Assembly (NCBI RefSeq): GCF_900096765.1
Contig: NZ_LT615228.1
Span: 1,246,669 to 1,310,668, forward strand
Source of the DNA: Polynucleobacter necessarius
GTDB taxonomy: Bacteria > Pseudomonadota > Gammaproteobacteria > Burkholderiales > Burkholderiaceae
Direction of reading: 5' to 3'
DNA length: 64,000 bases
Part shown: one piece after another, positions 29,455-44,462 of the stretch
How the letters are laid out: the number at the start of each line of letters is the position of its first letter
How positions within the stretch are numbered: the first letter of the stretch is position 1
Program-made: the position numbers and the translations under genes
Notes under the pieces: model-generated
The model's input: only the letters and a program-made list of their open reading frames with translations
Told to the model about the DNA's origin: nothing
Databases searched by the model: none

Positions 29455-30009
29455 TTACACATGACTCAACTGAATTTTTTTAATGTGATTGTGGGATTGA
29501 GATGAAGACCGGCCATCCCAATAGAACAATAATGGTATAACAGCTGCCCACACTACCCCGACCATAACGAATCCAATAGTTTGACCCTTAGAACCCCAAC
29601 TCCCGGCTCCCATTCGAATACCTGCCTCATATGAAAGCGGGCCACAAATAGCGCCTAAAGCCACTCCTAATAAGGTCTTGCCACGTAGCCAAGATAATGA
29701 ACCGTTAATAGTAGTTGCCACCAAAAGCCACAGCGTCCACATCCAAATGGGAGACAGGTAGCTGGAAGGCCAAGAGTCCTGAAAATTTAAATACCCCAAA
29801 TTCATAAGCATTGTGTCAGCTAAGATTCCATAAAGTAGCGCCCTAACGAGTAGATGACACGACTTTTTAGGCTCATTGAGTTGCCATATATGAAATGCGA
29901 TATAGGCCAATGTCACAGAGACTGCCCAGAAGACCTGCTTATTGGCTGCACCCAACACACAGGCAAACCAGCCCGCCTGAAAAAAGACAAAGTTCCAAAA
30001 TTTAGCCAT
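29455..30009 (-). CDS. DUF2878-like integral membrane protein
   Basis: About 184 residues from ATG 30009 (MAKFWNFVFFQAGWFACVLGAA), with five or six hydrophobic helices and a basic, polar tail. It resembles the DUF2878 family of small inner-membrane proteins of unknown function. The frame is open upstream to about 30057, but that extension would read through a perfect palindrome, so the internal ATG is preferred. It lies between the tRNA-Met 3' end and the broken TPR gene. Confidence 0.65.
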   Translation of the reverse strand: MAKFWNFVFFQAGWFACVLGAANKQVFWAVSVTLAYIAFHIWQLNEPKKSCHLLVRALLYGILADTMLMNLGYLNFQDSWPSSYLSPIWMWTLWLLVATTINGSLSWLRGKTLLGVALGAICGPLSYEAGIRMGAGSWGSKGQTIGFVMVGVVWAAVIPLLFYWDGRSSSQSHNHIKKIQLSHV

Positions 30010-30029
30010 CAGAAGGATTCTATAGAGCC

Positions 30030-30071
30030 CAAATATAAGGCTATTGCCGATCGGCAATAGCCTTATATTTG
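30030..30071. repeat. Perfect 42-bp palindrome overlapping the tRNA-Met CCA end
   Basis: Exact dyad symmetry around 30050/30051, with centre GCCGATCGGC and T/A-rich outer arms. It may serve as the tRNA terminator on the minus strand, and it lies just before the start of the DUF2878-like gene. Confidence 0.85.
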
Positions 30072-30146
30072 GTGGCGAATCAGGGATTTGAACCCCGGAC
30101 CTGCGGATTATGATTCCGTCGCTCTAACCAGCTGAGCTAATTCGCC
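30070..30146 (-). tRNA. tRNA-Met (CAT)
   Basis: A 77-nt cloverleaf with encoded CCA. Acceptor stem GGCGAAT/ATTCGCC, D-arm GCTCAGCTGGTTAGAGC, anticodon loop ATCATAA and T-loop TTCAAAT. The loop context fits elongator methionine tRNA, though a CAT anticodon could also be an isoleucine tRNA with lysidine. Anticodon-to-5'-end sequence is repeated at 41665-41732, so an element is integrated here. Confidence 0.93.
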
Positions 30147-30149
30147 GAA
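30108..30149. other. Left attachment site (attL) in tRNA-Met
   Basis: The stretch from the anticodon loop to just past the tRNA 5' end is found again at the right end of the element. At this end it is joined to the chromosomal 3' half, making an intact tRNA gene. Confidence 0.75.
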
Positions 30150-30155
30150 CTCGCT

Positions 30156-30185
30156 ATTATAAGTGATAGGAGTGGTGCTGTGCAA
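30156..30185 (-). promoter_or_regulatory. Element-borne promoter of tRNA-Met
   Basis: On the minus strand TTGCAC (30180-30185), 18 bp, TATAAT (30156-30161), ending ten bases before the tRNA 5' end. If 30108-30149 is attL, this promoter belongs to the element, not to the original chromosome. Confidence 0.6.
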
Positions 30186-30316
30186 ACTCTGTCAAATAGC
30201 TCTTTCCGTGCAGTTCTACGGTGCTAAATCCTGTTTAAGGGTGTTTAACCCTGTTCGGCTTTTCCTGCTTACGCAGAAACTGCTTTTTTTAGAGTTTGTT
30301 GTGCTTTGGTAATTTT

Positions 30317-30436
30317 TTAACGCTTTCTTTCAGCATCTAACGCTGTTCCAGCACGCTCTTTCTGCTTTTTTAATGCTTCTATGTGTGCCTGGCTGGGGTT
30401 AAGCGGCTTAATCGGTTGAATTTCACCAATCCTCAT
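30317..30436 (-). CDS. Small basic protein at the left end of the element
   Basis: A 39-residue ORF starting ATG and ending TAA: MRIGEIQPIKPLN then a charged helix HIEALKKQKERAG. It is divergent from the membrane protein at 30471. No family is recognised; the helix could bind nucleic acid, but that is a guess. The remaining sequence 30187-30316 shows no gene. Confidence 0.4.
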   Translation of the reverse strand: MRIGEIQPIKPLNPSQAHIEALKKQKERAGTALDAERKR

Positions 30437-30470
30437 ATAGTATTTAGCGAAGAATATTTAGAAAGAATTT

Positions 30471-31052
30471 ATGACAGTTGGTGTTGATTTATTACTAAAA
30501 GCTGGTTCTGTAGTCTTAACTACGGTGTTAGCCATTTTTATCAAAAAAATATTGGAAGATAAGCCTAAGCTAATAACTTACCTAATCCACGCTTCAGCAA
30601 TTCCTTTAAATTCCCAATCACCATCACCTCAACAAGCATCACAAGTCAACACTCACACTTTCGTTGTTAAAAATACGGGTAGAGTCTCAGCAAAGAATGT
30701 TCGAATTGGACACAACTATCTTCCAAATAGCTTTCAAGTATTTCCACAGATTAACTACCAAATTCTTAACAATCCCAATGGCTCAGCCGAGCTTCTGATT
30801 CCAGTACTTGTAGCTGGAGAGGAAATAGCAATCTCCTACCTTTACTTTCCACCTACGGTATATACGGACATTAATTCATATACCAAGTCAGATGAGGGAT
30901 TTGCAAAAATGGTTACAACCATACCAGTTCCACAGCCGACTAGACTAGCAAAGATAATCGTGTTGGGTTTAATGCTTGTTGGTGCATCTTCAATTGTCTA
31001 TTGGACTGCAAGCTATTTCTTTGCACCTTATCTTAGTGAGTTAATTTCATAG
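30471..31052 (+). CDS. Hypothetical two-helix membrane protein
   Basis: A 193-residue protein with a hydrophobic N-terminal segment (LLLKAGSVVLTTVLAIFI), a polar domain of about 120 residues (TFVVKNTGRVSAKNVRIGHN begins it), and a C-terminal membrane helix (IIVLGLMLVGASSIVYW). The middle part has the NTGxxxAxNV pattern seen in immunoglobulin-like or CARDB-like domains, but no family is assigned. It could be element cargo in the envelope. Its stop overlaps the 31047 gene on the other strand by six bases. Confidence 0.6.
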   Translation: MTVGVDLLLKAGSVVLTTVLAIFIKKILEDKPKLITYLIHASAIPLNSQSPSPQQASQVNTHTFVVKNTGRVSAKNVRIGHNYLPNSFQVFPQINYQILNNPNGSAELLIPVLVAGEEIAISYLYFPPTVYTDINSYTKSDEGFAKMVTTIPVPQPTRLAKIIVLGLMLVGASSIVYWTASYFFAPYLSELIS

Positions 31053-31199
31053 CCAGTGAATTTCTGTTGGCATATGCGGCACATTTGCTGAGCCGATGAT
31101 TGACTTAAACAATGCATATGCCTGTGCTTGATTTTGTGCAAACACGACGGCTTCTGTCCATAGTCCGCTTGCCTTAGCTGTTGCCTTATATCTCTTCAT
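31047..31199 (-). CDS. Small hypothetical protein downstream of integrase
   Basis: Fifty residues from ATG 31199 (MKRYKATAKASGLWTEAVVF), a short alpha/beta protein ending EIHWL. The frame is open to 31232, but that extension is the palindrome at 31213-31233, so the inner ATG is preferred. It may be cotranscribed with the integrase. Function unknown. Confidence 0.45.
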   Translation of the reverse strand: MKRYKATAKASGLWTEAVVFAQNQAQAYALFKSIIGSANVPHMPTEIHWL

Positions 31200-31212
31200 A
31201 CAAGTATTTATT

Positions 31213-31233
31213 GGTGTCGTTTTAAACGACACC
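31213..31233. repeat. Element palindrome, copy A
   Basis: Perfect 21-bp dyad with 10-bp arms and core GTCGTTTTAAACGAC. It begins seven bases after the stop of the first integrase (minus strand). Confidence 0.9.
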
Positions 31234-31239
31234 TAATGC

Positions 31240-32271
31240 TTAAATCAATACCTTCAAAATCACATCACGCTTTTGCTCAAGTGTGTAACCAACAGTTCCA
31301 TAAGTATTGAACTCACTACCCCCACTGCTATGCCCAGTAATACTTTCAGCTAGGCGTGTGGGTATGTCGTTTCTTGCTTTCATCCTGTCAATGATTGCGT
31401 GCCTAAACATATGACTCTTAAAGTCAAACTCTTTGAGTGTTTTTTTAATGATTTGAGAACAGCTTGTATTGCCATTGTCCCTTGCATAGTGCGGTACAAA
31501 CCACTCACTGTTTTTTCTTCTCGCAATCTTATAAAGCTCCTTAGCAGCATCTAGTGAAACGCCGCAAAGTGGTACAGCACGAATACTGGATTTTGTTTTT
31601 TTTCTATCACTTAACGCATTTCGTCTTATCCACAAATGCGGAATATCGTGTTCCAGCACACAATCTTCCAATCTCGCAAACAAGGGTTCTGATAAACGAA
31701 ATCCTGTATTGAGTTGAATAAGTGCCACTAACTTATGCGGTGTTGAGTTTCTTAGTAAGCACTCTTTGACTTGTTGGATTAGTTGAGTGGTAATGATTGG
31801 CATTGGACGCTTGTTCTCGCCCTCACCCCTAATCTTCAATGCTCTAAACGGACTTAGCCTGTCTAAATCTAAATGCTTAAATGCCATATTGAGCATAGCG
31901 TTTAGTGTGTTGTTATGTTTGCGAACGCTGGTTGGACTTAAACCTCGTGCAAGTTGATAGTCTCTATATTCAGTTATGTGCCAGTGCTTTAACTCATCTA
32001 AAGTTAAATCACCAAAAAAATCTCTAAAACTACGAAAGTGATAGTTAGCGTGTTTAACAAATGTGGGGCGATGCGAAGAAGTTGCTTCATTCATATAGAT
32101 TTGAAAGGCATCTGTAATCGTTGGCAATTTGCCATTCTTTTGCTTTGCCAGATGCTCGCTAATTACTTTGGCAAGAAACTCTTCTTCAAAGTTTATACCA
32201 TTAACTTTGTTGATTAAGCGTTCAATTTTGTCAAAAACGATTGGGTGGGGTTTTATTACGACAGCTCGCAT
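31240..32271 (-). CDS. Tyrosine recombinase/integrase, left
   Basis: A 343-residue site-specific recombinase. An N-terminal SAM-like core-binding domain (about 50-150) is followed by a catalytic domain with Arg in NTGFRLSEPL, HxxR in HMFRHAI, GHSSGG and the likely nucleophile Tyr in FNTYGTVGY. The family cuts and joins DNA through a Tyr linkage. It lies about 1.1 kb from the left end and may integrate or excise the element. Palindrome copies A and B flank it. Confidence 0.88.
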   Translation of the reverse strand: MRAVVIKPHPIVFDKIERLINKVNGINFEEEFLAKVISEHLAKQKNGKLPTITDAFQIYMNEATSSHRPTFVKHANYHFRSFRDFFGDLTLDELKHWHITEYRDYQLARGLSPTSVRKHNNTLNAMLNMAFKHLDLDRLSPFRALKIRGEGENKRPMPIITTQLIQQVKECLLRNSTPHKLVALIQLNTGFRLSEPLFARLEDCVLEHDIPHLWIRRNALSDRKKTKSSIRAVPLCGVSLDAAKELYKIARRKNSEWFVPHYARDNGNTSCSQIIKKTLKEFDFKSHMFRHAIIDRMKARNDIPTRLAESITGHSSGGSEFNTYGTVGYTLEQKRDVILKVLI

Positions 32272-32310
32272 AGTTTTCCTTATTTAAGTAAAGTTGGATT
32301 GCTCGGCAAC

Positions 32311-32333
32311 GGGTGTCGTTTAAAACGACACCC
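32311..32333. repeat. Element palindrome, copy B
   Basis: Perfect 23-bp dyad with 11-bp arms (outer GGG/CCC) and core GTCGTTTAAAACGAC. It lies eight bases after the stop of the DUF6641-like gene and 40 bp before the integrase start. Confidence 0.9.
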
Positions 32334-32341
32334 TTACCTAC

Positions 32342-32782
32342 CTACTTACGAAAACCTGCCTTCAAAGCACTGCTAGCTAATTCAATTTGATTATCTAGTT
32401 CTCCCGCTTCTACCGCTTGCCTAATTGTGGAGAGTGCTTTTACCAACTCGTCAGCACTTGAAACTTCCACGCTGTGCTTGCCTTTAGCCAGCTCAATGAT
32501 TTTTGTTCCGTACTTAACAGACACACAAACCTTACCAGCCTCATTCTTAAACCACCACTCTCTCAACCTTTTATTCACTTCCACGCTTTTGCGTAGTCCC
32601 GTTTCTACGTCCTTAACTGTACGAAATTTCTTTACCGTAAAGCTAGTACCGTCAATGTGACTTTTAGCAAGCTGAATTTGCTCCCAAAGTTTGTTTGATA
32701 GCTTATTGCGTCGAAATACAACTTGTGGAATATGTGCTGGCTTTTTTGCTGTTGATAATTTCAATCCATCTAATGTGCTCAT
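32342..32782 (-). CDS. DUF6641-like protein
   Basis: A 146-residue soluble protein. RRNKLSNKLWEQIQLAKSH near the start, LREWWFKNEAGKVCVSVKYG in the middle and AKGKHSVEVSSADELVKAL near the end fit my recollection of DUF6641, a family of phage and integrative elements without known function. A good ribosome site (AGGAGAG) precedes the ATG. It lies upstream of the integrase and divergent from the 32921 gene. Confidence 0.65.
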   Translation of the reverse strand: MSTLDGLKLSTAKKPAHIPQVVFRRNKLSNKLWEQIQLAKSHIDGTSFTVKKFRTVKDVETGLRKSVEVNKRLREWWFKNEAGKVCVSVKYGTKIIELAKGKHSVEVSSADELVKALSTIRQAVEAGELDNQIELASSALKAGFRK

Positions 32783-32920
32783 TTTGTTCTCTCCTATAAG
32801 TTAATGGGCACACTTAATTTATTACCAGAATTTCGGTTTGGACAACCTATATTTGCCACCATAAACCAAATAATTCACTTAAAAATAAATGGTTTTATTT
32901 GGTAACGCATAAATAAACGT

Positions 32921-33445
32921 ATGCAAATTACAGCAAATACTATTAGAGACTTTTTGGATAAACAGCAAAAGCACATAACGCACTATGTTGTAACGCATAC
33001 CTATTTCCATACGTATCACAAAGAGGATTGGGAAATTGAGCGTATGCGAGTATCTGCAATTAAAGATATGCGACACGCACGTAATTGTTTTAACAAAGAG
33101 CTTTACGGCAATGGAGCAAAAAGAAAGCCACTTACATATCAACCACTATTAATACCTACATTAGAAGGCACTAAAAACACAAGCAATCCAAAATTAACAA
33201 TTCACTACAACATTTATTTAGGCAACATACCCACAGCATTAACTACGGACGACATAAAGACGTTATGGACATACTGTTGGGTAGAAAAAGCACATCAAAA
33301 AGACAACACATACATTACAGAACCGTTAGCTAACACTCAATCACACTTATTACTTTACGGCACTAAAGAAATGCAATTTGGAAACTTAAGTTGTTGGGAC
33401 TTTGAAAACACTCAAATCCCGTATAACGCACTAAACATTGACTGA
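32921..33445 (+). CDS. Hypothetical protein, possible degenerate HUH-type replication protein
   Basis: A 174-residue protein with a basic N-terminal half. PLLIPTLEGT, LTIHYNIYLGNIP and LLLYGTKEM are arranged like motifs of rolling-circle replication or inovirus Gp2-type proteins: an H-hydrophobic-H motif and a later Tyr/Lys motif. The second His of the HUH pair is Asn here (HYN), so catalytic function is doubtful and the resemblance may be chance. The upstream intergenic region 32783-32920 is AT-rich and could hold divergent promoters. No Shine-Dalgarno is seen. Confidence 0.45.
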   Translation: MQITANTIRDFLDKQQKHITHYVVTHTYFHTYHKEDWEIERMRVSAIKDMRHARNCFNKELYGNGAKRKPLTYQPLLIPTLEGTKNTSNPKLTIHYNIYLGNIPTALTTDDIKTLWTYCWVEKAHQKDNTYITEPLANTQSHLLLYGTKEMQFGNLSCWDFENTQIPYNALNID

Positions 33446-33588
33446 AGTTGTGTTTAGGTAGTTAAACACTAAGCATTGGATGCAATGCTTAGTTATAGTT
33501 ATATGACTATTGGTTGAAATAATGAAAGTCTAACTTAAGCAATGCATCAATAGAATACTGATAGACTGTAAATAATGATAAGGAAAAT

Positions 33589-33999
33589 ATGAATAAAGAA
33601 GAGTTAAGCGTAGTCCTACACAAGCTATCTTTATTAGCTATCAGTGAAATTACAAATAGAACAGTAGATGATGCGGAGTTTGATGAAGGTTTGCTAAGTT
33701 ATGGCAGATGTAGAGTAATAACTGAACCATTACAGTTCATCTCTGTAAAGCCGCCTATGAGTGATGATGAAGGATATAGAGTTATTTTTCAGCTATCACC
33801 TAACTATCTGACACAGCACTACACCTTATGTATTAAAGGTGTGCTACCTGAACTAAAGTGGAAAGTAACATTAGGACAGAAAAGTTTAGGTGTAGTTGAG
33901 TCGTTAGCAAACAGTCAATTTGATTTTGATTTTGTATCTGCTGAAATTGAAGCAATAGATACTGAAGAGTTTTTAGAAACTATTAGAAACTTAAGTTAA
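33589..33999 (+). CDS. Hypothetical element protein
   Basis: A 136-residue acidic, soluble protein starting MNKEELSVVLHKLSLL, with FQLSPNYLTQHYTLCIKG in the middle and a Glu-rich end. An AAGGAAA ribosome site is well placed before the ATG. No family recognised, no signal peptide, no membrane segment. Confidence 0.55.
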   Translation: MNKEELSVVLHKLSLLAISEITNRTVDDAEFDEGLLSYGRCRVITEPLQFISVKPPMSDDEGYRVIFQLSPNYLTQHYTLCIKGVLPELKWKVTLGQKSLGVVESLANSQFDFDFVSAEIEAIDTEEFLETIRNLS

Positions 34000-34021
34000 A
34001 AAATTCTTTCTGAATAATTTT

Positions 34022-34381
34022 TTACTTGCGACTAATTCCTTGCACAGCAATTTGACCATTAATATCTCTTACTTCGTTCAATATTTGTTGCAGTTGTTGA
34101 TTCTGACCATCTCTATCTAAATTACCTTTATAGTCCGTAATTGCAGATTGATTGTTATCAGTTGAATATTTGATCTTCGCCTGCACCTCTCTTTCAACAG
34201 CGATCCAGTCAATTTCGTTATTAGGCAAATCTCTTAAAATACCTTGCTCCTGTAATTTACTGATGAGTCGCCTTTCTTCATACCTATCAAAAAATAGTTT
34301 TCCTAAAATTACTAAAATTAGTACTGCTGGAATCGCATAAACGAATTTTCTTTTTATGCTCATATTCATATTGTTTCCCAT
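34022..34381 (-). CDS. Hypothetical membrane-anchored protein
   Basis: A 119-residue protein with one N-terminal membrane helix (FVYAIPAVLILVILGKLFF) and a hydrophilic remainder exposed outside the membrane. It begins two bases after the stop of the lipoprotein gene upstream, so the two are probably cotranscribed and may act together. No family recognised. Confidence 0.55.
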   Translation of the reverse strand: MGNNMNMSIKRKFVYAIPAVLILVILGKLFFDRYEERRLISKLQEQGILRDLPNNEIDWIAVEREVQAKIKYSTDNNQSAITDYKGNLDRDGQNQQLQQILNEVRDINGQIAVQGISRK

Positions 34382-34383
34382 CT

Positions 34384-34819
34384 TTAATCCAAGTTAACTG
34401 GTGATGCGTATATGTAGTCAAACACTTTCACTCCATCAGCCCTAATTGCGGTAGCCAGCTCCTGTTCAGTTCGCCCTGCCATACATCCCCATTGACCTTG
34501 CCACATATATTGATTGACACCTTTACCAGCATCTTCACTAAAAAAGATACATCTAATTGCGCCAATATGAATACCACTTATCTCATCGCCTACTTCAATC
34601 GTTTTTAGAGAATTCAATTCTGTAACTTTTGTTGACTGTGTAACTAAAAGTTCTTGTGTTTTACCAATGTACTTTACAGTGGTATAGGGGCTTAACGTAA
34701 TAGACTTAACCCATTTATCCTGCTGCTCTGGCAATTTAATTTTTTTTTGAAGTTGATTTTCCACAACTAATTAGAGTAAGCAATACCAAAAACATTGCGA
34801 ATACTTTTATTCCGTTCAT
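34384..34819 (-). pseudogene. Putative lipoprotein split at an A9 run
   Basis: ATG 34819 encodes a lipoprotein signal (MNGIKVFAMFLVLLTLISC) with lipobox LISC, then stops after 27 residues. The following domain (KLPEQQDKWVKSITLSPYTT to YASPVNLD) is open in the next frame. The frames meet at nine A residues (34740-34748, T on the plus strand); eight would give a continuous lipoprotein of about 143 residues. This may be a lesion, a sequencing indel or a phase-variable run. Domain unknown; it has two Cys (RCIF and WGCM). Confidence 0.6.
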
Positions 34820-35217
34820 TCAATTAGCCTTTTTATAAATTGGTATCAATGCTTATAAGAATATTAACCGCAATACCGGAATATTAGACATTCAAAACCA
34901 CGCTACAAGCACTCAAAACATTACAGCTAATAGCAATACAGCAGAGAGGTGCTTAAACAGCGTATAGACGCTATACGCAAGTCTGCCCAATTCTGTGGGA
35001 GATAGACGACAAATTCCATAAATAAAACAATGTAATGAAATGCACAAAAGATTACATTTCACGATTACATTTCACCCGAAAAAATACACATCTCATTGAT
35101 TTATGGAAGGATTTTCATTTGATGCACAACTTGCACTACGAGGTAGGAAAAAATAAACAAAGAAAACATACTTTAGACATAGCAAAACTTTGGTTAGGTA
35201 AAAAAAAGGAGAAAACT
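34820..35217. other. Intergenic region with a 13-bp tandem repeat
   Basis: About 400 bp without a convincing gene. It holds a perfect 13-bp tandem repeat (GATTACATTTCAC, 35050-35075), A/T-rich stretches and a hyphenated dyad near 34954-34974 (GCGTATAGACGCTATACGC). The integrase frame is open from 35035, but lack of homology and a strong ribosome site at 35207 argue against coding here. Confidence 0.5.
35050..35075. repeat. Perfect 13-bp tandem repeat
   Basis: GATTACATTTCAC twice without spacer, 143 bp upstream of the middle integrase. Confidence 0.9.
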
Positions 35218-35802
35218 ATGTCTAAGCAAGCGAAAACACTAAATCAAGCTGAATTACGCAGAGTGCTTGATTACATCGCAACCCGAAAGCACGCACTAAG
35301 AAATAGAGCAATGCTTTTGATTACCCATTTAGCGGGGTTAAGGTGCGGAGAAGTATCTGCTCTTCGCTATAAGGATGTAGTGGATGCTGAAGGCAAAGTA
35401 AGGCATGAAATTCGGTTGACTGGGGAACAAACAAAGGGTGGTACGGCAAGAACTGTATTTATTAGCGAACGACTACGCAAAGAGTTGAAGCAGTACGTTA
35501 CGTTCTTTCGACTATGCAAACTAGAGGATTCAAACGTAAAGTTTTTCTATAGTCAAAAACGGGATAGTGACGGCTTCACTGCAAACACCTGTGCCCAGTA
35601 CTTTCACTACCTATACAAGAAAGCTGGCATTGATGGTGCAAGCAGTCACAGCGGCAGACGCTCATTTGCCACCGCAATCGCTTCGAAGGGTGTCGGCATA
35701 AAGGTTCTACAGAAGCTATTGGGGCACAAAAATATTCAAACTACCAGTGTTTATATCTACGCAAGTGACGATATGCTCCGCAAAGCTGTAGAGCTCGCAT
35801 AA
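35218..35802 (+). CDS. Small tyrosine recombinase, middle
   Basis: A 194-residue recombinase from ATG 35218, chosen because AGGAG lies seven bases upstream. It has almost only the catalytic domain: Arg in HLAGLRCGEVSALRYKD, HxxR in HSGRRSFATAI, His in LLGHKNIQTT and nucleophile Tyr in SVYIYAS. Length is far below phage integrases and closer to minimal XerC-like enzymes lacking the core-binding domain. It converges with the AAA+ ATPase across a shared terminator. Its substrate is unknown; the dispersed palindromes or another site could be targets. Confidence 0.85.
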   Translation: MSKQAKTLNQAELRRVLDYIATRKHALRNRAMLLITHLAGLRCGEVSALRYKDVVDAEGKVRHEIRLTGEQTKGGTARTVFISERLRKELKQYVTFFRLCKLEDSNVKFFYSQKRDSDGFTANTCAQYFHYLYKKAGIDGASSHSGRRSFATAIASKGVGIKVLQKLLGHKNIQTTSVYIYASDDMLRKAVELA

Positions 35803-35804
35803 AA

Positions 35805-35825
35805 AAGCCCGCTATAAGCGGGCTT
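35805..35825. terminator. Bidirectional terminator between integrase and ATPase
   Basis: AAGCCCGCT-ATA-AGCGGGCTT, a 9-bp stem with three-base loop and A-rich flank, between two converging genes. Confidence 0.8.
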
Positions 35826-35836
35826 AATCTACTGCT

Positions 35837-35851
35837 GTTGTTTAAAACGAC
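35837..35851. repeat. Element palindrome, copy C (imperfect)
   Basis: GTTGTTTAAAACGAC; one mismatch to the core. It lies three bases after the stop of the AAA+ ATPase (minus strand). Confidence 0.7.
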
Positions 35852-35854
35852 TGT

Positions 35855-36553
35855 CTACGCGGCTAGTTTTAGTGGCATTCCATTTTTCCTGTAATGACGC
35901 ACTACCAACTGTCTTGCCGCAAGCATAATTTCACGTGCACTTCCATTGCACATTTCAATAATTCTCAATGCGTCAGTATCTGTCACGTGCGTTACCCCAT
36001 AGTCACAAAGCACTTGCTTAAACTTATCCAACCAAGCTGTAGCGGGAGCCGCATTAAATTCAATGCGTATGCACCTATCTTGCACCCCACGCTCTACTGC
36101 ACTTAGCTTATTAGTTGTAAGAATGAACACATTTTGAAAGCTAGCAATATTCATTGCCGCTTTTAGCGAATCCATTGCCTCTATTCGCAAGTTATCTACC
36201 TCGTCTAATACATAGTAGTTATAGCGATTACAGTAAGGTATAAGTATTGCCTTGTGCTTAATACTTTCAATAATTTTTGCACCGTTATCACCACCTTGTG
36301 AAATATTCACGTAAGTAGCAAAGTTTGCCTGCTCATTGCCAAATGAAAACTCGAACAAATCGGGTAATAGCTTTGCTAATGCTGACTTCCCTGTGCCATT
36401 TACCCCATAAAGCAATATGCCATTCTTACCGCTCGCAGGGAAACCCAATGCTCCACTTACACAGTCTTTAATTACCTCCCTTGCATCTTGTGAATGAAAC
36501 ACAATGTCGTTAATCGTACGTGGTGTATAGCGTTCGTCAAAATCTTTAAACAT
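35855..36553 (-). CDS. AAA+ ATPase, clamp-loader/RuvB-like
   Basis: About 232 residues from ATG 36553, which has AGGAGA five bases upstream. Walker A is LLYGVNGTGKSALAK, Walker B YYVLDEVDNL, sensor 1 FILTTNK, and an arginine-rich RGVQDRCIRIEF follows. The C-terminal helical lid (NGSAREIMLAARQLVV) is like that of RFC/DnaX small subunits. The start RYTPRTINDIVFH also recalls clamp loaders. A role in element replication or maintenance is plausible but inferred. The upstream gene on the same strand is separated by a terminator. Confidence 0.78.
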   Translation of the reverse strand: MFKDFDERYTPRTINDIVFHSQDAREVIKDCVSGALGFPASGKNGILLYGVNGTGKSALAKLLPDLFEFSFGNEQANFATYVNISQGGDNGAKIIESIKHKAILIPYCNRYNYYVLDEVDNLRIEAMDSLKAAMNIASFQNVFILTTNKLSAVERGVQDRCIRIEFNAAPATAWLDKFKQVLCDYGVTHVTDTDALRIIEMCNGSAREIMLAARQLVVRHYRKNGMPLKLAA

Positions 36554-36581
36554 AAATCTCTCCTTTTTAGACAAAAAAAAA

Positions 36582-36605
36582 GGGCACAGCGTAATAGCTG
36601 TGCCC
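36582..36605 (-). terminator. Rho-independent terminator upstream of the ATPase
   Basis: GGGCACAGC hairpin followed by nine T on the minus strand. It ends the 37408-36620 gene, 15 bp after its stop. Confidence 0.85.
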
Positions 36606-36619
36606 GAAATGATTACTAC

Positions 36620-37408
36620 TTAAGCGGCGTCTTTAATAGACTGAGATAGTTGTGCGTCATTACTAGCTTTAGTACGCTCTTCTGCTTTCGACTTAATACT
36701 GTCTTTGTTAGCAGAGTAATACGCTGATAACGCTGTATTAATAGCCGTTTCGCTATACGTAACTGCATTTGCTACTAACTCACCGCTTGCCTGCTGTGTA
36801 GCAACAATAACTACCTGCTGCCCAACTTTTCCGCTATCAAGCTGTTTAGCTAACGCTTCCCCGCTTACTTTTGCCAATGACTGCTCTACGACAGTATTTT
36901 TAGCAAGCTCAGCTTTAGCTTTAGTACTTAACGCATTACCTTTAGCTAAGCGTATTTCTTGCACCCCACCCCTGCTTTCAATAAAACCAGCAATTTGTGC
37001 TTCAGTCTTATTTTCAGCAAGTGCCGCACGTAAAACAATGCTGTAAGTGCTTGTACGACGTCTATCAGCACCAAACACACACTTAACAATTTTTGTCAGC
37101 GTATGTGAAGACTTAGCAAACACATAACCTTTTAAGTTAATGTACGTTAGTAAATCTTCACGCATTTGTTTTGCTTTTTCATTGTCTTCCGACATTGAAA
37201 TATACGTACCGTAGCAACGTGCTAACAACTTATACAACTGCTCATTACTTGTACGAGCTACTGTGTTTTCTCACGCTTCTCTATCAAGCACTAACTGCTC
37301 AATGAAGGAAAACTTATAACTATTACTTTTGTTGCTACTGTCGTTTAAAACGACAGTAGTGTTATCAGCAGTAGTTTTAACAGGGTTATTTAACATTTTT
37401 TCGAACAT
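36620..37408 (-). pseudogene. Hypothetical element protein with one in-frame TGA
   Basis: ATG 37408 opens a frame of 262 sense codons, interrupted once by TGA at 37271-37273 (codon 46), between LDREA and ENTVARTSNEQ. The downstream part contains LYKLLARCYGTYISMSED and is helix-rich; the tail is Ala/Lys-rich (SKAEERTKASNDAQ). A Trp at the stop position would fit the helical context (REAWENTV), suggesting TGG to TGA. Palindrome copy D lies in the 5' coding part. It neighbours the AAA+ ATPase on the same strand. No family recognised. Confidence 0.55.
37335..37359. repeat. Element palindrome, copy D
   Basis: Perfect 25-bp dyad with 12-bp arms (outer CTACT/AGTAG) and core GTCGTTTAAAACGAC, located about 50 bp inside the 5' end of the 37408 gene. 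Confidence 0.9.
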
Positions 37409-37545
37409 TGCAAACTCACTTTCTTATTAAGATAAAAATAAGATGTGTTAATAAAATATCAACCTCATCCATAACGTCTATTTTACTTTTTATCGTTTTT
37501 TTGAGATACTACAAAGCAATTAAATGCAATTTGCTTGTTAATAAA

Positions 37546-38286
37546 ATGACTACAACACCCGTTCATTTCCTTGCTCCTTATCCGCTATTTGGCAAAAAGC
37601 AAAAACCACTCTCCATTGCCTACCAACAACGAAGTCCGTTTTACTGGTGGTGGGAATATTTACGACGCAATAGCGACTACTTAAAGTGTTGCGAAACGAA
37701 TGGTGCCGGCAAGCTAGCAAAACTTTATAAAGAATTTGGAGACGTACGAAACGACGACTTTAAGAAATGGTGAAGTGAAGGCAATAGAGGTGCTTATTTG
37801 TTTGGTGAAAAACGTAGTGCTCTGATTCCAAAAGAACTCAATAGCAAATCGGAATGGGAAGAAGATTGGGATTATCAAAACGTAATGGTTGTGGCATTAC
37901 CACTAACAATGGGCAAAAGGGAATTGCAAAGTAGATTCGCCAAACTACTTAACAAAAGACACACAGCTAAAAGAGGCAGAACTGCTAAAAAATTAGGTAA
38001 GAGTACCGCTAGATTTCCACTCAACCGCAACTACACAATTGAAAGTCTACAAAAGGCATTGGATGTCTATGACTGTTACACGAGGCTAGTTCAGTTGAAT
38101 GGCAAAGCTAAGTTGTGGGAAGTAGGGGTTGAGTTGAGACTTGTTAGAACCGCTATGCCAACTACAGGTGATATAAAGCAAGATATAGCTATTAAACGAA
38201 ATGTAATGGCGGCTACCGTCAAACGCTATCTCAAGCAAGCTGAAACCATCATTGCCAATACTTCGCTAGGTATCTTCCCCAGCTAA
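37546..38286 (+). pseudogene. Hypothetical element protein with one in-frame TGA
   Basis: About 246 codons from ATG 37546, interrupted by TGA at 37771-37773 between DDFKKW and SEGNRGAYLFGEK; the frame continues unchanged to TAA 38286. The N-terminal part has PFYWWWEYLRRNSDY and LAKLYKEFGDVRNDDF. I recall similar element proteins with a second Trp at the stop position (KxWWxEGxRGAxLF), so TGG to TGA is likely. The C-terminal part is basic with ITERS-like helices (NRNYTIESLQKALDVYD, VMAATVKRYLKQAE), perhaps DNA-binding. Function unknown. A stem of GCTAACCA (38282-38302) overlaps the stop. Confidence 0.55.
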
Positions 38287-38361
38287 CCAATGGCTGGTTA
38301 GCAGTCTGTTTATGTTAGTTTTGATGTAAAAGAAACACTTAAACTTTGAATGGAAATTGTT

Positions 38362-38815
38362 ATGGCAAGAGCACCTTTTAATGGCAAGCAAATGGTTGAA
38401 GCGGCAGAAGCTGGAGAGCTAACACCCACCCAAGTTCGACAAGCACTGAAAAGAGCAACTGAACTTGGTTTACATAGCTAGAAAGCTAACGGAATACTTA
38501 GTACAAGCTAATGAATTTGCTGATGATGGTGCTCCTAAAGAACTTAGAGAGCGTGTAGCTAAAGGAATTAGCTTGCCTAAAGGTTTGGGCTACCACCCAA
38601 ACCGCACCGAGCAAAAGCTAAGAAGACGAGGGGTTGTAATTACTCTTAACGATATTGCAGTAAATATGGAAATTAGCGACAACTTTAGAAGAATGATGTC
38701 TGCTGGTTACATAGACTACACAACAGAAGCTATTGTTAGAGATTTTCCAAAGTTCTTTAGCGAAGATGCAGTAAATGCTTCTTTAGAAAAATTAAAGAAA
38801 TATAAAAAAGATTGA
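38362..38815 (+). pseudogene. Hypothetical element protein, frameshifted
   Basis: ATG 38362 reads MARAPFNGKQMVEAAEAGELTPTQVRQALKRATE and is lost near 38464. The next frame continues LVYIARKLTEYLVQANEF to YKKD, TGA at 38813-38815. Removing one base in GAACTTGG joins the halves into about 150 residues. The first half resembles a short helix-turn-helix-like region; the second is helical and charged. No family recognised. Palindrome copy E follows eight bases after the stop. Confidence 0.5.
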
Positions 38816-38823
38816 TTGAGAGC

Positions 38824-38846
38824 AGGTGTCGTTTAAAACGACACCT
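38824..38846. repeat. Element palindrome, copy E
   Basis: Perfect 23-bp dyad with 11-bp arms (outer AGG/CCT) and core GTCGTTTAAAACGAC. Confidence 0.9.
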
Positions 38847-38882
38847 AAACTTCCTTTTATAGACAAACACTCAAATAAAGTG

Positions 38883-39023
38883 CTAATTTTCCTGCAACCC
38901 AGCAATGGGCTGATTAATTGCATTAGATTTTTGAAGGGTCTCAACTTTGTCACCTTTCCACATTGGAAATGTTAAGGCTTCTTGTGGCTTCCCACCGCTA
39001 GCAATAAACAGAACACACAGCAA
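38883..39023 (-). pseudogene. Possible remnant of a small lipoprotein
   Basis: A 46-residue open stretch, LLCVLFIASGGKPQEALTFP to AGLQEN, follows the secreted-protein gene on the same strand. The hydrophobic start followed by small residues looks like a lipoprotein signal whose lipobox Cys is missing. It lacks an ATG in frame. Otherwise 38847-39078 shows no gene. Confidence 0.3.
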
Positions 39024-39078
39024 TAATTCTCAACACGAAAAACAAAAAGACATAATTGAAATTTAAACTAATGAACCT

Positions 39079-39686
39079 TTATTGAATACCTTTAGAGTCT
39101 ATTTGCTGAGCTTCTAAGAAGAGGTTTTTACTAATGACGCTATACAACTTGTCATAAGGCTCTGCACTTTCTACATCTGATTTATTTGCCCCTTTGCCTC
39201 TTTGAGAAAAATCATTATGGACTAATGATATTCGCACTAAAACACTTTTCTTTTCTTTTAATAGCCTTAGACTTACTTGCGCCATATCAGTACAGGGCAT
39301 TGAATAGCTACTTGAGGCAAACACATTTCCGTTTGTTACTGTAGAACAATTTTGAGTAGTTTTACTAAATGTACCTTTGGTTTGATCATACATAGATCCA
39401 TCCCACTTTAAGTCCATAAATGCATCTTGAATCACATCTGATACTTTTTGTTAAATCGGTTGTCTTAAATTCTCTTGACTGTATCTGCCTGAGCTCGGAA
39501 GCAGACATTTTTGGAATTACCGCATCATCGCTTTGCACCGTCTGTTCGACAGTCTGTTTTTTGGGTGGCGCTACCAGCCACCCCCATTATCCCTTGCAAA
39601 AGAGAGCCAATTATTTCAGCTTGGGCGTAAACGTAAACATTAGTTACAGCAAAGCAAAAGAAGAGCGTCGCAAATATTTTATACAT
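39079..39686 (-). pseudogene. Secreted element protein with two +1 frameshifts
   Basis: ATG 39686, behind AAGGA, gives a signal peptide (MYKIFATLFFCFAVTNVYVYA). The frame is lost at a run of six A (39557-39562) and again at five A (39445-39449). With one base fewer at each, it reads on through QTVEQTVQSDDAVIPKMS, SREFKTTDLTK and VSDVIQDAFMDLKWDG to the C terminus, about 200 residues. The last part contains four Cys in all and ends DSKGIQ. No family recognised. It lies 13 bp after the BamE-like lipoprotein gene; the two probably form one operon. Confidence 0.6.
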
Positions 39687-39699
39687 ATTAAATATCCTT

Positions 39700-40109
39700 T
39701 TAAAAACTTGATGAATGCGTCGCAAATTCACGCACATGCTTTTTATCGTTAAATTTAATGACAAGTGTCAAAGTTCTTGATGATCTAACAACTACAGCCT
39801 GACTGGAGTTTGCAACCGCCTCTGTTTCTTGAGATATTTTGTCGTATACCCAAGTTTCTCTTCCACCACTATCAGTGGTAATTATGTTGGGTGAACCAAG
39901 TTTAGAAATAATTTCATCTCCACTAGCGCCTTTTTTTTAACTGTTGCTTGAACTGCCCCAAGCGTTAGTTTATTAGCTTCAGCACTGCGTGAATAGATAT
40001 TTGGTTGAGGTACATAAGCCTGCTGTACATTCTGATAAGGGGCACAGCCGCAGAGGGTAATAGGTACGAGAAAAAAAAGTAAAGTTTGATTTTTGGTGAA
40101 TTTATTCAT
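39700..40109 (-). pseudogene. BamE/SmpA-like lipoprotein, frameshifted
   Basis: ATG 40109 encodes a lipoprotein signal (LLFFLVPITLCGC) followed by PYQNVQQAYVPQPN. The frame breaks at eight A (39931-39938). With nine A it continues KGASGDEIISKLGSPN, RETWVYDKIS and LTLVIKFNDKKHVREF, which has the shape of the BamE/SmpA-OmlA fold: a helix-glycine-proline turn and a three-stranded sheet with a Trp-Val-Tyr strand. This is one of only two clear contractions among the homopolymer lesions. Restored length about 136 residues; outer-membrane location expected. Confidence 0.62.
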
Positions 40110-40214
40110 AATTTTGAAAAGATTCTGATATCTATAATCTATTTTGACTCATAATAACCCAAATAAAGAGTGACTGGAAACCACATTAACCCCAATCACA
40201 ACAAACATTTTGGC

Positions 40215-40231
40215 AGTCGTTTTAAATGACT
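40215..40231. repeat. Element palindrome, copy F (imperfect)
   Basis: AGTCGTTTTAAATGACT; one G-T mismatch in the arms. It ends 17 bp after the stop of the right integrase (minus strand). Confidence 0.65.
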
Positions 40232-40248
40232 ACATATACATATAAACC

Positions 40249-41457
40249 CTAAGCCAACTTCTCAGCCGCCATCATTGCCGTTAGCTTGCTGTAGTGCCGT
40301 TCTATCATTACTACGCTAGTTCCCATTTGCTTCGCTAATGTGTGTATGTCTATACCTTTTGTTAATGCTTGCGTAGCGTAGGTATGTCGCAAGCTGTATA
40401 GCGTTCTGTTTTGCCCCGCACTATTTTTTAATAAACCGCTCTTTTTCATTAAGTGCCGAAAGATGTTCTCCAATAAATATGGCATTTGTCCATCGGGCAT
40501 CACAAACACCTTTCTGTCCAGTTTTGCTTGTATGAGCTCATCCAAACTCACATATGGGAGCTGTTGCCACTTGTATAACCCCGTCAAAACGTCTAAAACG
40601 TCGTTTTTAGCAATTAGATACCTTGCTCCCGTCTTCCCACTCACCCATATGCGTAAAAAGCGTTTAGAACCGCTGTAATGCCACTGTAAGTGCTTCCAAC
40701 GCAGTGGCATAGACTCTGTGCTGTGCCGTATACCCGTATTAGCTAAAAACTTCACATAGGCACTACACAGAATGCGGGGCTCTCCGCTATGCCTATGATG
40801 AACATCCTTGTGCCAAATCGGCATATACGCATACAGCTGTTCCAACTCTTCTTGCGTGAATGCGGGACGGGGTTCGCTTTTTGCTCCACGTATGTTTAGT
40901 GTCGGCACTAACTTATTTCGCACATACCCATATTGTTTTGCTAACTCCACTACCCTGTTGTATGCCAGTGCGTGATGCTTCTTTGTAATTGCTTTTGGTT
41001 CTTTGCCCATCTCCGCAATTCGCCACGCTTCAAAATCTGCGACAAGTTCATTTGTGATTTCTTCAACGGGATATTTGCCGAAGAATGGAATGAGATATTT
41101 TTCCCAAATAAACAAATAGTCTTTGTATGTGCGTGCCCCACGCTGACTTGTTGCTACTCCAAGCAATAATTTAATTTCTTCATTTGCTAATTGCTTAAAT
41201 GTTTTTGTTCGTAGTGCTATGTTGTTTTCAATTTTGATTTTGACAACTTCAAACAACATCATTGCCTGCTTCTTTGCCTCCATTAAATCGTCTGTGCCTG
41301 TGCTAGCACTATGCCAGTCACCATTGCTTAGCTTAAAGCGGCATTGCCACTGTGCCGACTGCGGACGCTTATAGGCATTGAGTTTGCCGTCTAGTAGCTT
41401 GATTTGCTTGGGTTGTGGGGTTGGGGCACTTGCGAAGAATTGTTGAAGTAGCGACAT
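40249..41457 (-). CDS. Tyrosine recombinase/integrase, right
   Basis: About 402 residues from ATG 41457. An arm-binding N-terminal part (QWQCRFKLSNGDWHSASTG), a core-binding domain (about 90-200) and a catalytic domain with Arg in FLANTGIRHSTE, LRHTYATQAL and Tyr in MIERHYSKLT. Two usual His positions look replaced: Tyr before SLRH, and MGTS in place of the GH motif. It lies 200 bp from the right att site and reads leftward away from it, the typical place for the integrase of a tRNA-targeted element. Confidence 0.87.
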   Translation of the reverse strand: MSLLQQFFASAPTPQPKQIKLLDGKLNAYKRPQSAQWQCRFKLSNGDWHSASTGTDDLMEAKKQAMMLFEVVKIKIENNIALRTKTFKQLANEEIKLLLGVATSQRGARTYKDYLFIWEKYLIPFFGKYPVEEITNELVADFEAWRIAEMGKEPKAITKKHHALAYNRVVELAKQYGYVRNKLVPTLNIRGAKSEPRPAFTQEELEQLYAYMPIWHKDVHHRHSGEPRILCSAYVKFLANTGIRHSTESMPLRWKHLQWHYSGSKRFLRIWVSGKTGARYLIAKNDVLDVLTGLYKWQQLPYVSLDELIQAKLDRKVFVMPDGQMPYLLENIFRHLMKKSGLLKNSAGQNRTLYSLRHTYATQALTKGIDIHTLAKQMGTSVVMIERHYSKLTAMMAAEKLA

Positions 41458-41664
41458 ACGCACTAGTGTGCTGTCGTCTTGTATTTTCTGCGACGATTAG
41501 TTTTTTATCGTAGTCAAAATCTCACACGATATTCTGCCAACGCAGACGTTTGCGTGTTAGTATTTTTTCAATGCCAGTGTTTGTGGTGCGGTGCGAACAG
41601 GAGATTTTGCGTATGCTTAACGAAACGTTTTACAACTGAACTGTTTCATAACTCAATTTCTTCG

Positions 41665-41732
41665 TTATGATTCCGTCGCTCTAACCAGCTGACTCTAACC
41701 AGCTGAGCTAATAGCTGAGCTAATTCGCCGAA
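41665..41732. other. Right attachment site (attR), tRNA-Met 5'-half copy with internal duplications
   Basis: Repeats the anticodon-to-5'-end part of tRNA-Met. It carries two nested perfect duplications: 14 bp (41679-41706) and 12 bp (41701-41724). Without them it matches the left copy over about 42 bp. Confidence 0.8.
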
Positions 41733-41741
41733 AAACATAGC

Positions 41742-41770
41742 ATTTTAACTTATTTGCTTAAAGTCTTCAA
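41742..41770 (-). promoter_or_regulatory. Orphaned original tRNA-Met promoter
   Basis: On the minus strand TTGAAG (41765-41770), 17 bp, TAAAAT (41742-41747), directed at the truncated tRNA copy. It fits the pre-integration promoter. The stretch 41771-41978 shows no gene. Confidence 0.5.
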
Positions 41771-41978
41771 TTTATTGGTCTCTTCGAGCATTTCCCCCAA
41801 GGACCAGTAAAGAATCGGCTCATTTGTATGGAAGCGGTGGGGAAAGCAATAAGATCCCCTCAGAACACGGAGAGTCTAACCTATCCTCACTTAACGGAGA
41901 TCATAAATTTTTCACAAAACTTTAGTAGCATTTACGTCCTCAAATAGCGTAATTAAAAGGCACAAGGAGACATGCGCC

Positions 41979-43469: not shown

Positions 43470-44462
43470 TCACACGCCTTCGTTGGTCTCTATAGAATTT
43501 TTGGCTCGCAAAAATCGAGGTATAAAGTGATCAACTACTTTTCGTCCCAATCTCTCATTTTTTAATGTCATTGGCGCAGGCTCTAAATTCCTAATAATGC
43601 CAGCTAAATTTGGTCTTATGATCTGATTTTGCGAATCACTTACACCAAGATTACCGACCTCACAATGCGAAATCTTGGTAGGCATTTTGAGAGCGCAATA
43701 TTTCTCATAGACAAAGTTTCCGAATTCGCAAAAGTTCATAGCAATACCCTCATTTTGCGAATCACTTACACCAAGATTACCGACCTCACAATGCGAAATC
43801 TTGGTAGGCATTTTGAGAGCGCAATATTTCTCATAGACAAAGTTTCCGAATTCGCAAAAGTTCATAGCAATACCCTCATCCTCTGCTTCACAGAGAAAAT
43901 GATTGCAGTAATACTGGTCGATATCTCTTATTTTTTGCACTGGTGGACTGACTAAACAATTGCTATTAGCAGATACAAAAGGGAATATCCCCGTAATATC
44001 TTGACCAGGATCAATTCTGCTTGGCGCCATCACTATGATCTGGTTTCTTTTACGGACAAGCGCAAGGTTTCTTTGCAGATACTCCAAAACAAAAATTTCG
44101 GAACTTGCCATTTCTACTCGACTCGTCGAACTTGGGACGACGATCATATCGAACTCCAGCAAAAACTGAGGAGGCAAGTTGTAGGACCAGGTTAAATCCG
44201 CAATCACTATTTCGGCAATTTTCGAGCAATCTCTCAATGTCGCTTTAGCCTCAAGCAAAACCAAGCCAGGATTATTTTGGCTTTGTATATTTGCACAATG
44301 AACCATCACCCCAATATTTGATGCTTTACTTAACCAATTTGATGAGGAACGCTGTCTATCGAAATCGATAAAGGCTGTTTCAATATCATTCTTTAACTTA
44401 AAGAATGCTGCTAGATTGGCAGAAATCGTGCTTTTTCCAACACCACCTTTTTGATTGGTCAC
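43470..44462 (-). CDS. ParA/MinD-like ATPase with internal 126-bp duplication
   Basis: About 330 residues. It starts TNQKGGVGKSTISANLA, the deviant Walker A of ParA proteins, with DFDRQRSSSNW as the A' motif and VIADLTW as Walker B. A 42-residue block (EGIAMNFCEFGNF to GVSDSQN) is repeated exactly, in frame, from a 126-bp tandem DNA duplication. GTG 44462 opens the frame; ATG 44481 would read MTPFK and join it if the T4 at 44466-44469 were T3. No ParB gene is next to it. Plausible as an orphan ParA; the duplicated part may spoil folding. Confidence 0.75.
   Translation of the reverse strand: MTNQKGGVGKSTISANLAAFFKLKNDIETAFIDFDRQRSSSNWLSKASNIGVMVHCANIQSQNNPGLVLLEAKATLRDCSKIAEIVIADLTWSYNLPPQFLLEFDMIVVPSSTSRVEMASSEIFVLEYLQRNLALVRKRNQIIVMAPSRIDPGQDITGIFPFVSANSNCLVSPPVQKIRDIDQYYCNHFLCEAEDEGIAMNFCEFGNFVYEKYCALKMPTKISHCEVGNLGVSDSQNEGIAMNFCEFGNFVYEKYCALKMPTKISHCEVGNLGVSDSQNQIIRPNLAGIIRNLEPAPMTLKNERLGRKVVDHFIPRFLRAKNSIETNEGV
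43626..43877. repeat. Perfect 126-bp tandem duplication
   Basis: 43626-43751 is repeated exactly at 43752-43877, inside the ParA-like gene. The unit is a multiple of three, so the frame survives. Confidence 0.97.

Follow-up and report, generated by a model that had tools for sequence, protein, structure and literature searches.

A palindromic motif of a Polynucleobacter tRNA-Met element belongs to a genus-wide set of element-specific tags linked to an uncharacterized gene pair

In a stretch of 64,000 nucleotides from Polynucleobacter necessarius (assembly GCF_900096765.1, contig NZ_LT615228.1, positions 1,246,669 to 1,310,668; this whole stretch is called the window hereafter), a short dyad-symmetric motif occurs six times within an 11.5-kb element that is bordered by a tRNA-Met gene (minus strand, 30070..30146) on the left and by partial tandem repeats of the tRNA-Met 5' half (~41665-41732) on the right. 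The phenomenon is wider than these six copies: element-specific palindromic sites, here called tags, occur genus-wide and are linked to an uncharacterized gene pair encoding a protein of about 260 amino acids (p260) and an AAA ATPase. The motif of the window appears to be one class, class A, of such dispersed and sequence-specific DNA sites, and the comparisons described below show that the class of an element's tags goes with the block formed by p260, the AAA ATPase and a third gene, p247, and not with the tyrosine recombinase IntA, a short tyrosine recombinase or a DUF6641 protein encoded by the same elements.

The conserved unit in the window is a 17-bp palindrome, TGTCGTTTWAAACGACA, that contains a 15-bp core. 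All six copies were found where the original prediction had placed them, four of them exact and two (at 35837 and 40216) with one mismatch. When up to three mismatches were allowed, the window held 13 strand-wise matches, of which the six sites account for 12, compared with an expectation of 1.32, and 0 of 100 shuffled windows reached 13. The rest of the 1,825,583-bp genome contains no further copy at one mismatch or fewer and three places at two mismatches, which bears out the claim that the motif is confined to the element and favors an element-specific motif over one of equal density across the chromosome. Tag 1 (31216..31230, or 31215-31231 in its 17-bp form; exact) lies 9 bp past the stop of a 343-amino-acid tyrosine recombinase gene (minus strand, 31240..32271), and tag 2 (32315..32329; exact) lies 12 bp past the stop of the DUF6641 gene (minus strand, 32342..32782) and 43 bp upstream of the 343-amino-acid recombinase. 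The stops of the short recombinase (plus strand, 35035..35802; conserved part of ~190 amino acids) and of the AAA ATPase (minus strand, 35855..36574) converge on tag 3 (35837..35851; one mismatch). Tags 5 (38828..38842; exact) and 6 (40216..40230; one mismatch, 18 bp past the stop of the 404-amino-acid tyrosine recombinase IntA, minus strand, 40249..41463) form the left and right borders of a 1.4-kb segment (38843..40215). Five of the six copies are thus 3-18 bp from a stop codon and three follow tyrosine recombinase genes, as had been described; the sixth, tag 4 (37340..37354; exact), is not intergenic and lies inside the 5' coding part of p260 (minus strand, 36620..37400), a gene interrupted here by an in-frame TGA and intact in relatives.

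Outside the window, the exact 15-bp core was found in 122 of 186 Polynucleobacter genomes, with up to 19 copies per genome and the listed places often clustered across 10-25 kb, while the core pattern read backwards, used as a control, gave at most two per genome in the same 186. The 17-mer occurred in 40 of 398 sampled genomes of the family, all of them Polynucleobacter (40 of 61 sampled), and in 0 of 337 sampled genomes from 24 other genera. A scan of named genomes returned at least 119 stretches, and 40 of the 80 loci among the matches listed were titled Polynucleobacter, the remainder being beta-proteobacterial bins or lone matches in unrelated taxa. A phage origin of the motif was set aside, as the 63 matches in IMG/VR comprised one place each, which by our estimate is about the number due to chance. 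The short recombinase showed a loose link only to the motif, being present, by a hand tally, in 75 of the 122 genomes that have the motif and 20 of the 64 that lack it. Neither the core sequence nor DUF6641 was met in the literature searched, which did not extend to subscription papers and preprints; the motifs described in the available part of a study on Polynucleobacter (PMC8632094) are others.

Related elements bear other dispersed palindromes, often at places matching those of class A, and each labeled element has one recurrent tag class with sites every 1-2 kb (L-numbers denote labeled loci and G-numbers genomes). Class A was assigned to the window, L271, L272, L123 and others, class B to L285 and L338-L340 (7-9 copies of its pattern per 20-kb locus), class C to L275, L276 and L291-L293, and class D to L323, L325 and L379; scanning the loci for inverted repeats that recur revealed further classes. 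The class-C pattern, whose centers vary between sites of a single element, occurred in 19 of 186 genomes, of which G182 holds six copies in 7.5 kb, and L362, which comes from another family of the order, has three palindromes of AGCGTC type. L375, a locus that spans two IntA matches, holds both GTCGGTTWAACCGAC and GTCGGGTNNAACCGAC, each as a set of four copies. Terminator-like inverted repeats of the form AAAACC...GGTTTT, up to nine per fetched locus, were seen in L106, L107, L140 and other islands.

Pairwise comparison of the element genes carries the link between tag class and the p247-p260-AAA block. At 80% identity or more, pairs discordant in class made up 14 of 42 for IntA, 30 of 92 for the short recombinase and 45 of 93 for DUF6641, and 0 of 26 for p260, 0 of 19 for the AAA ATPase and 0 of 13 for p247; in L272 and L276, for example, IntA is 98.5% identical and is followed by a class-A and a class-C tag, respectively. 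One-nearest-neighbor agreement with hand-set labels was 26/35 for IntA, 33/38 for the short recombinase, 25/36 for DUF6641, 30/36 for p247, 35/37 for p260 and 28/29 for the AAA ATPase. With automatic labels and with relatives more than 90% identical left out, the values were 12/25, 13/34, 13/27, 27/37, 31/40 and 25/33 in the same order (permutation maxima, 14-16). The earlier suggestion that the motif is a recombinase target is therefore disfavored, since the class of the tags goes with neither of the two recombinases that the comparison covers, IntA and the short one; the 343-amino-acid recombinase is present in 8 of 121 loci, too few for inclusion. Of 67 p260 loci, 40 are flanked by both a divergent p247 upstream and the AAA gene downstream, 23 by a single one of these genes and 4 by neither. 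Within the block, p247 is a less probable reader of the tags, although none of its 13 pairs is discordant: some class-A p247 proteins show no mutual BLAST similarity, and in L131, where tags and p260 are of class B, the nearest relative of p247 belongs to class D.

The places occupied by tags recur among relatives, where they lie 0-40 bp past the stops of IntA, the short recombinase, the AAA ATPase and DUF6641. A tag after the stop was of the element's own class in 14 of 14 IntA and 8 of 8 short recombinase genes (within 150 bp) and in 8 of 8 AAA and 12 of 14 DUF6641 genes (within 120 bp), an agreement that is partly circular because these tags help to define the class and that includes L323, which fits two overlapping class patterns; 14, 23, 20 and 18 genes, respectively, had no such tag. 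The two DUF6641 exceptions, L275 and L279, have a tag of another class after the stop, and both share DNA homology with the class-A window over the DUF6641 gene and the 343-amino-acid recombinase next to it. IntA is followed by class C in L275, L276 and L278. Tags 1-5 of the window have exact counterparts in both L271 and L272 (flank identity 68-96% where alignable), and L279 carries a class-C palindrome at the place of tag 2 and an AGCGT-type (F) palindrome at that of tag 3, after the short recombinase. Among the 51 class-A tags in element spans, 19 follow the stop of a core gene within 60 bp and 16 fall in the stop-to-stop frames of IntA, AAA or p260; the remaining 16 lie in other places.

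A further recurrent place is the start of p260. By fixed patterns, a class palindrome was found near the predicted start of 19 of 44 full-length p260 genes, at offsets of +45/+54 for class A (7 genes), +48 for class B (5), +71 for class I (1), -46 and -92 for AGCGT-type palindromes (2), and +77 to +86 for class C (3), with L275 at +155 from an earlier predicted start; L334, L337, L292 and L279 were near-misses. Class-A and class-B palindromes share the same columns of the p260 N-terminus, a region that is otherwise poorly conserved. At L337:8628, GTCTTTTTAAAAGAC stands at the p260 spot where close relatives carry the B palindrome, possibly a class change in progress. In the window itself, where neither p260 nor p247 is intact, two of six tags are mismatched; in L271 and L272, which have an intact p260, mismatched tags number 0 of 5 and 0 of 6, respectively. 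These numbers are too few to prove relaxed selection.

Class-A tags also occur outside elements, in arrays of cargo genes. Many clusters lie at a tRNA-Phe gene and contain repeated tRNA 3'-end copies followed by cargo genes, and in L102 and L108 a tag is ~45-230 bp from a tRNA 3'-end copy. An IntA match stands beside the array in G011, G015 and G022 and an IntA fragment with a stop in G009; the stretches fetched from G008, G010, G014, G017 and G020 gave no match to the integrase family. Tags of different classes keep company in these arrays: the B palindrome GTCCTTTWAAAGGAC lies within 130 bp of 38 of 149 class-A tags outside elements (random points, 56 of 3600) and the G palindrome GTCGCTTAAATCGAC within the same distance of 12 of 149 (random points, 11 of 3600), while inside elements B is near 2 of 51. 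Sequences that are homologous on one side of a tag frequently differ on the other, as in 744 of 868 pairs of half-flank homologs, compared with 25-34% at control points 250 bp off and 2-11% at 400-600 bp; when the homology had to span 330 bp or more, the figure was 71 of 159. Two or more partners were found for 44 of 70 half-flank families, and a single cargo half-flank has three (L108/L116/L135, L107/L187 and L174). Inside elements, 21 of 74 pairs were switched at class-A tags, and the two control offsets together gave 3 of 94. The cleanest case is that of the segment between tags 5 and 6 of the window; L271 and L272 lack it, and in them the two flanks meet at a single tag. Of the roles proposed originally, operator of an element regulator and cassette boundary each fit parts of the evidence.

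Two explanations that place the function of the tags in RNA or in DNA exchange can be weighed against these data. A hairpin at mRNA 3' ends, acting as terminator or stabilizer, would suit the several copies directly past stops and the four window copies that fold better than shuffles (z from -4.4 to -7.0), but the two degenerate copies do not (z of -0.1 and -1.6), other copies lie inside reading frames, and Rfam returned, at gathering scores across 29900-41900, tRNA as its sole match. The hairpin had been proposed, beside a dimeric protein site, on the strength of complementary outer arms, which are indeed present in the four exact window copies; the six copies average 2.83 extra pairs versus 1.34 (standard deviation 0.50) for shuffled partners. 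This complementarity does not extend to related loci. Over 260 sites the palindrome is 17 bp long, and 89% of its arms have T/A at ±8; the central base is A at 127, T at 133 and C at one of 261 sites. From the second base outside the core onward, the sites are as complementary (0.33/0.31/0.27) as shuffled partners (0.32/0.30/0.27). Some of the outer arm pairs are missing from the L271 and L272 orthologs of the window copies, for example at 37340 and 38828. The check for arm covariation in homologous elements thus went against the covariation claim. The arms inside the motif are of fixed sequence, and the 1.06 Mb of island loci hold 234 perfect NNNN-TTTWAAA-NNNN palindromes, 165 with GTCG and 65 with GTCC arms, so that selection acts on a sequence-specific symmetric site and not on pairing as such. 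With pairing beyond 17 bp at chance level, arm covariation was rejected as a general property and the hairpin is very improbable. A tyrosine recombinase exchanging modules at the tag, with TTTWAAA as its 7-bp center and TGTCG as its arms, is a less remote but still improbable alternative. It would account for the homologous half-flanks with different partners and for the arrangement X-tag-Y in L271 and L272 versus X-tag-segment-tag-Y in the window. However, 91% of matches were broken at tags, 71% at untagged intergenic midpoints near tags and 35% at random points, so that in these islands gene borders are mosaic whether tagged or not, and because a BLAST alignment stops at a shared tag regardless of where the true junction lies, the case for tags as exact breakpoints is weaker than it first seemed. 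The class-C centers that differ within one element, the 16 element tags inside p260, AAA or IntA frames and the independence of class from IntA and the short recombinase also stand against exchange at the tag. The central base, considered as an indicator of the side of the crossover, was the same in 47 of 71 long switched pairs and 79 of 88 long colinear pairs, figures that do not decide the side.

A reader protein acting through operators would be expected to leave such a trace, a sequence-specific symmetric DNA site whose places stay fixed and whose sequence shifts along with p260-AAA. From the sequence comparisons we judge the chances about even that the tags are sites bound, class by class, by a p260-AAA system that the element encodes, marking one family of integrative elements (with IntA, DUF6641, the short recombinase, p247, p260 and AAA) together with the non-autonomous cassettes that live beside the elements. 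These cassettes bear the same tags, and modules are joined at them. The p260 protein, probably with the AAA ATPase, would bind the tag as a symmetric dimer. With less assurance, we suggest that binding might exert element-wide control in the manner of phage stoperators, through autoregulation at p260 and roadblock or silencing at gene ends, and that a cassette acquiring a tag might join the control regime of the element. A further reading, somewhat less likely than not, is that the tags amount to an address system for mobile DNA, in which each lineage spreads its own palindrome over the element, a co-evolving p260-AAA reads it, and cassettes collect several classes of tag and so become open to use or control by helpers of several classes. 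The main competitor, which we regard as rather unlikely, is that p260-AAA recognizes the tag when the DNA of the element is replicated, partitioned or transferred and that cassettes are moved in trans by class-matched helpers. The clamp-loader-like character of the AAA ATPase (RFC small subunit/T4 gp44), the mixed-class sets of cassette tags, the arrays that carry tags and tRNA 3'-end repeats with no integrase in the fetched stretch, and exact tags in arrays of genomes where p260 was not found (loci chosen for exact copies) all speak for mobilization or maintenance. An origin or transfer site, however, needs one or few copies, which makes dispersal to gene ends superfluous, and the proteins scanned include no recognizable relaxase, packaging or replication protein other than the clamp-loader-like AAA.

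Several observations weigh against p260-AAA as the reader. Since p260, AAA and p247 are linked, covariation cannot fully separate them, and independent class changes are few. The class patterns were set after the loci were inspected, and a fixed rule gave a class to 43 of the 67 p260 loci and none to 24. In 12 of the 20 last-fetched loci the scan found no recurrent palindrome; the other 8 of 20 have 3-5 copies each, compared with a maximum of 2 copies of any palindrome in the chance control (6 shuffles per locus, 20 loci), and not all 8 are convincing. Tagged cassette arrays exist in genomes where p260 was not found (G008, G009, G010, G014, G017 and G020). The p260 protein has no recognizable DNA-binding domain or family relation in PDB or Pfam, and two structural models (29 and 80 sequences; mean confidence, pLDDT, 75 and 80) had no confident match in PDB or BFVD. 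Its relatives number 390 at an E value of 0.001 among 7998 candidates scored, and none of the 120 matches listed has a functional name.

In the window, p247 (plus strand, 37408..38286) is divergent from p260, downstream of which lies the AAA gene, and is split into two pieces (37408-37773 and 37798-38286) that correspond to an intact gene in L271 and L272. ARAGORN called a tRNA-Gly at 37536-37630, within this remnant, a call that is probably false because the Rfam listing lacks it. Scans with defense-system and NCBIfam models gave general ATPase and recombinase matches only. Outside the element, 43470-44462 holds a ParA-like gene, the protein of which contains a direct repeat of ~40 residues, a tandem duplication.

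The tag set, which comes with an uncharacterized protein family and a clamp-loader-like ATPase, is a candidate for a natural collection of matched reader-site pairs, with about ten tag classes in one freshwater genus. If confirmed, such pairs would help to explain how helper elements recognize tRNA-bound cassette arrays in small aquatic genomes, and the compatibility of element and cassette could be tested from sequence alone. With tycheposons and the tRNA-bordered flexible islands of aquatic bacteria, the element shares a tRNA border (tRNA-Met or other), a tyrosine recombinase and cargo. An island of freshwater Methylophilaceae has tRNA-end repeats (PMC10872708); the available text of that study does not contain 'palindrom' and describes no class-specific dispersed tags. 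Integron cassettes resemble the present arrays in their serial gene cassettes, in the short symmetric site (attC) at cassette borders and in the surrounding tyrosine recombinases. The tags, in contrast, are palindromes of fixed sequence, gene orientation is mixed, the arrays contain tRNA 3'-end repeats, and the three recombinases of the window fall below the cut-offs of the NCBIfam integron-integrase models. By analogy, the nearest described systems are SPBRE sites and stoperators. SPBRE, as described in the accessible part of PMC10516654, is a 15-bp intergenic repeat within one element, Bacillus phage SPbeta, that is read by the element-encoded master regulator MrpR; MrpR has a tyrosine-recombinase fold, whereas tag class here follows neither of the two recombinases compared. 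The stoperators of the cluster A mycobacteriophages L5 and Bxb1, as far as they are covered in the accessible parts of PMC6550527 and PMC9283540, are asymmetric 13-mers that act in an orientation-dependent way with a monomeric repressor, in contrast to the palindromic tags and to p260, for which repression is suggested by this analogy. With these stoperators the tags nevertheless share many dispersed sites in short intergenic spaces, a site near the gene of the known or putative reader, and a lineage-specific consensus that varies with it.

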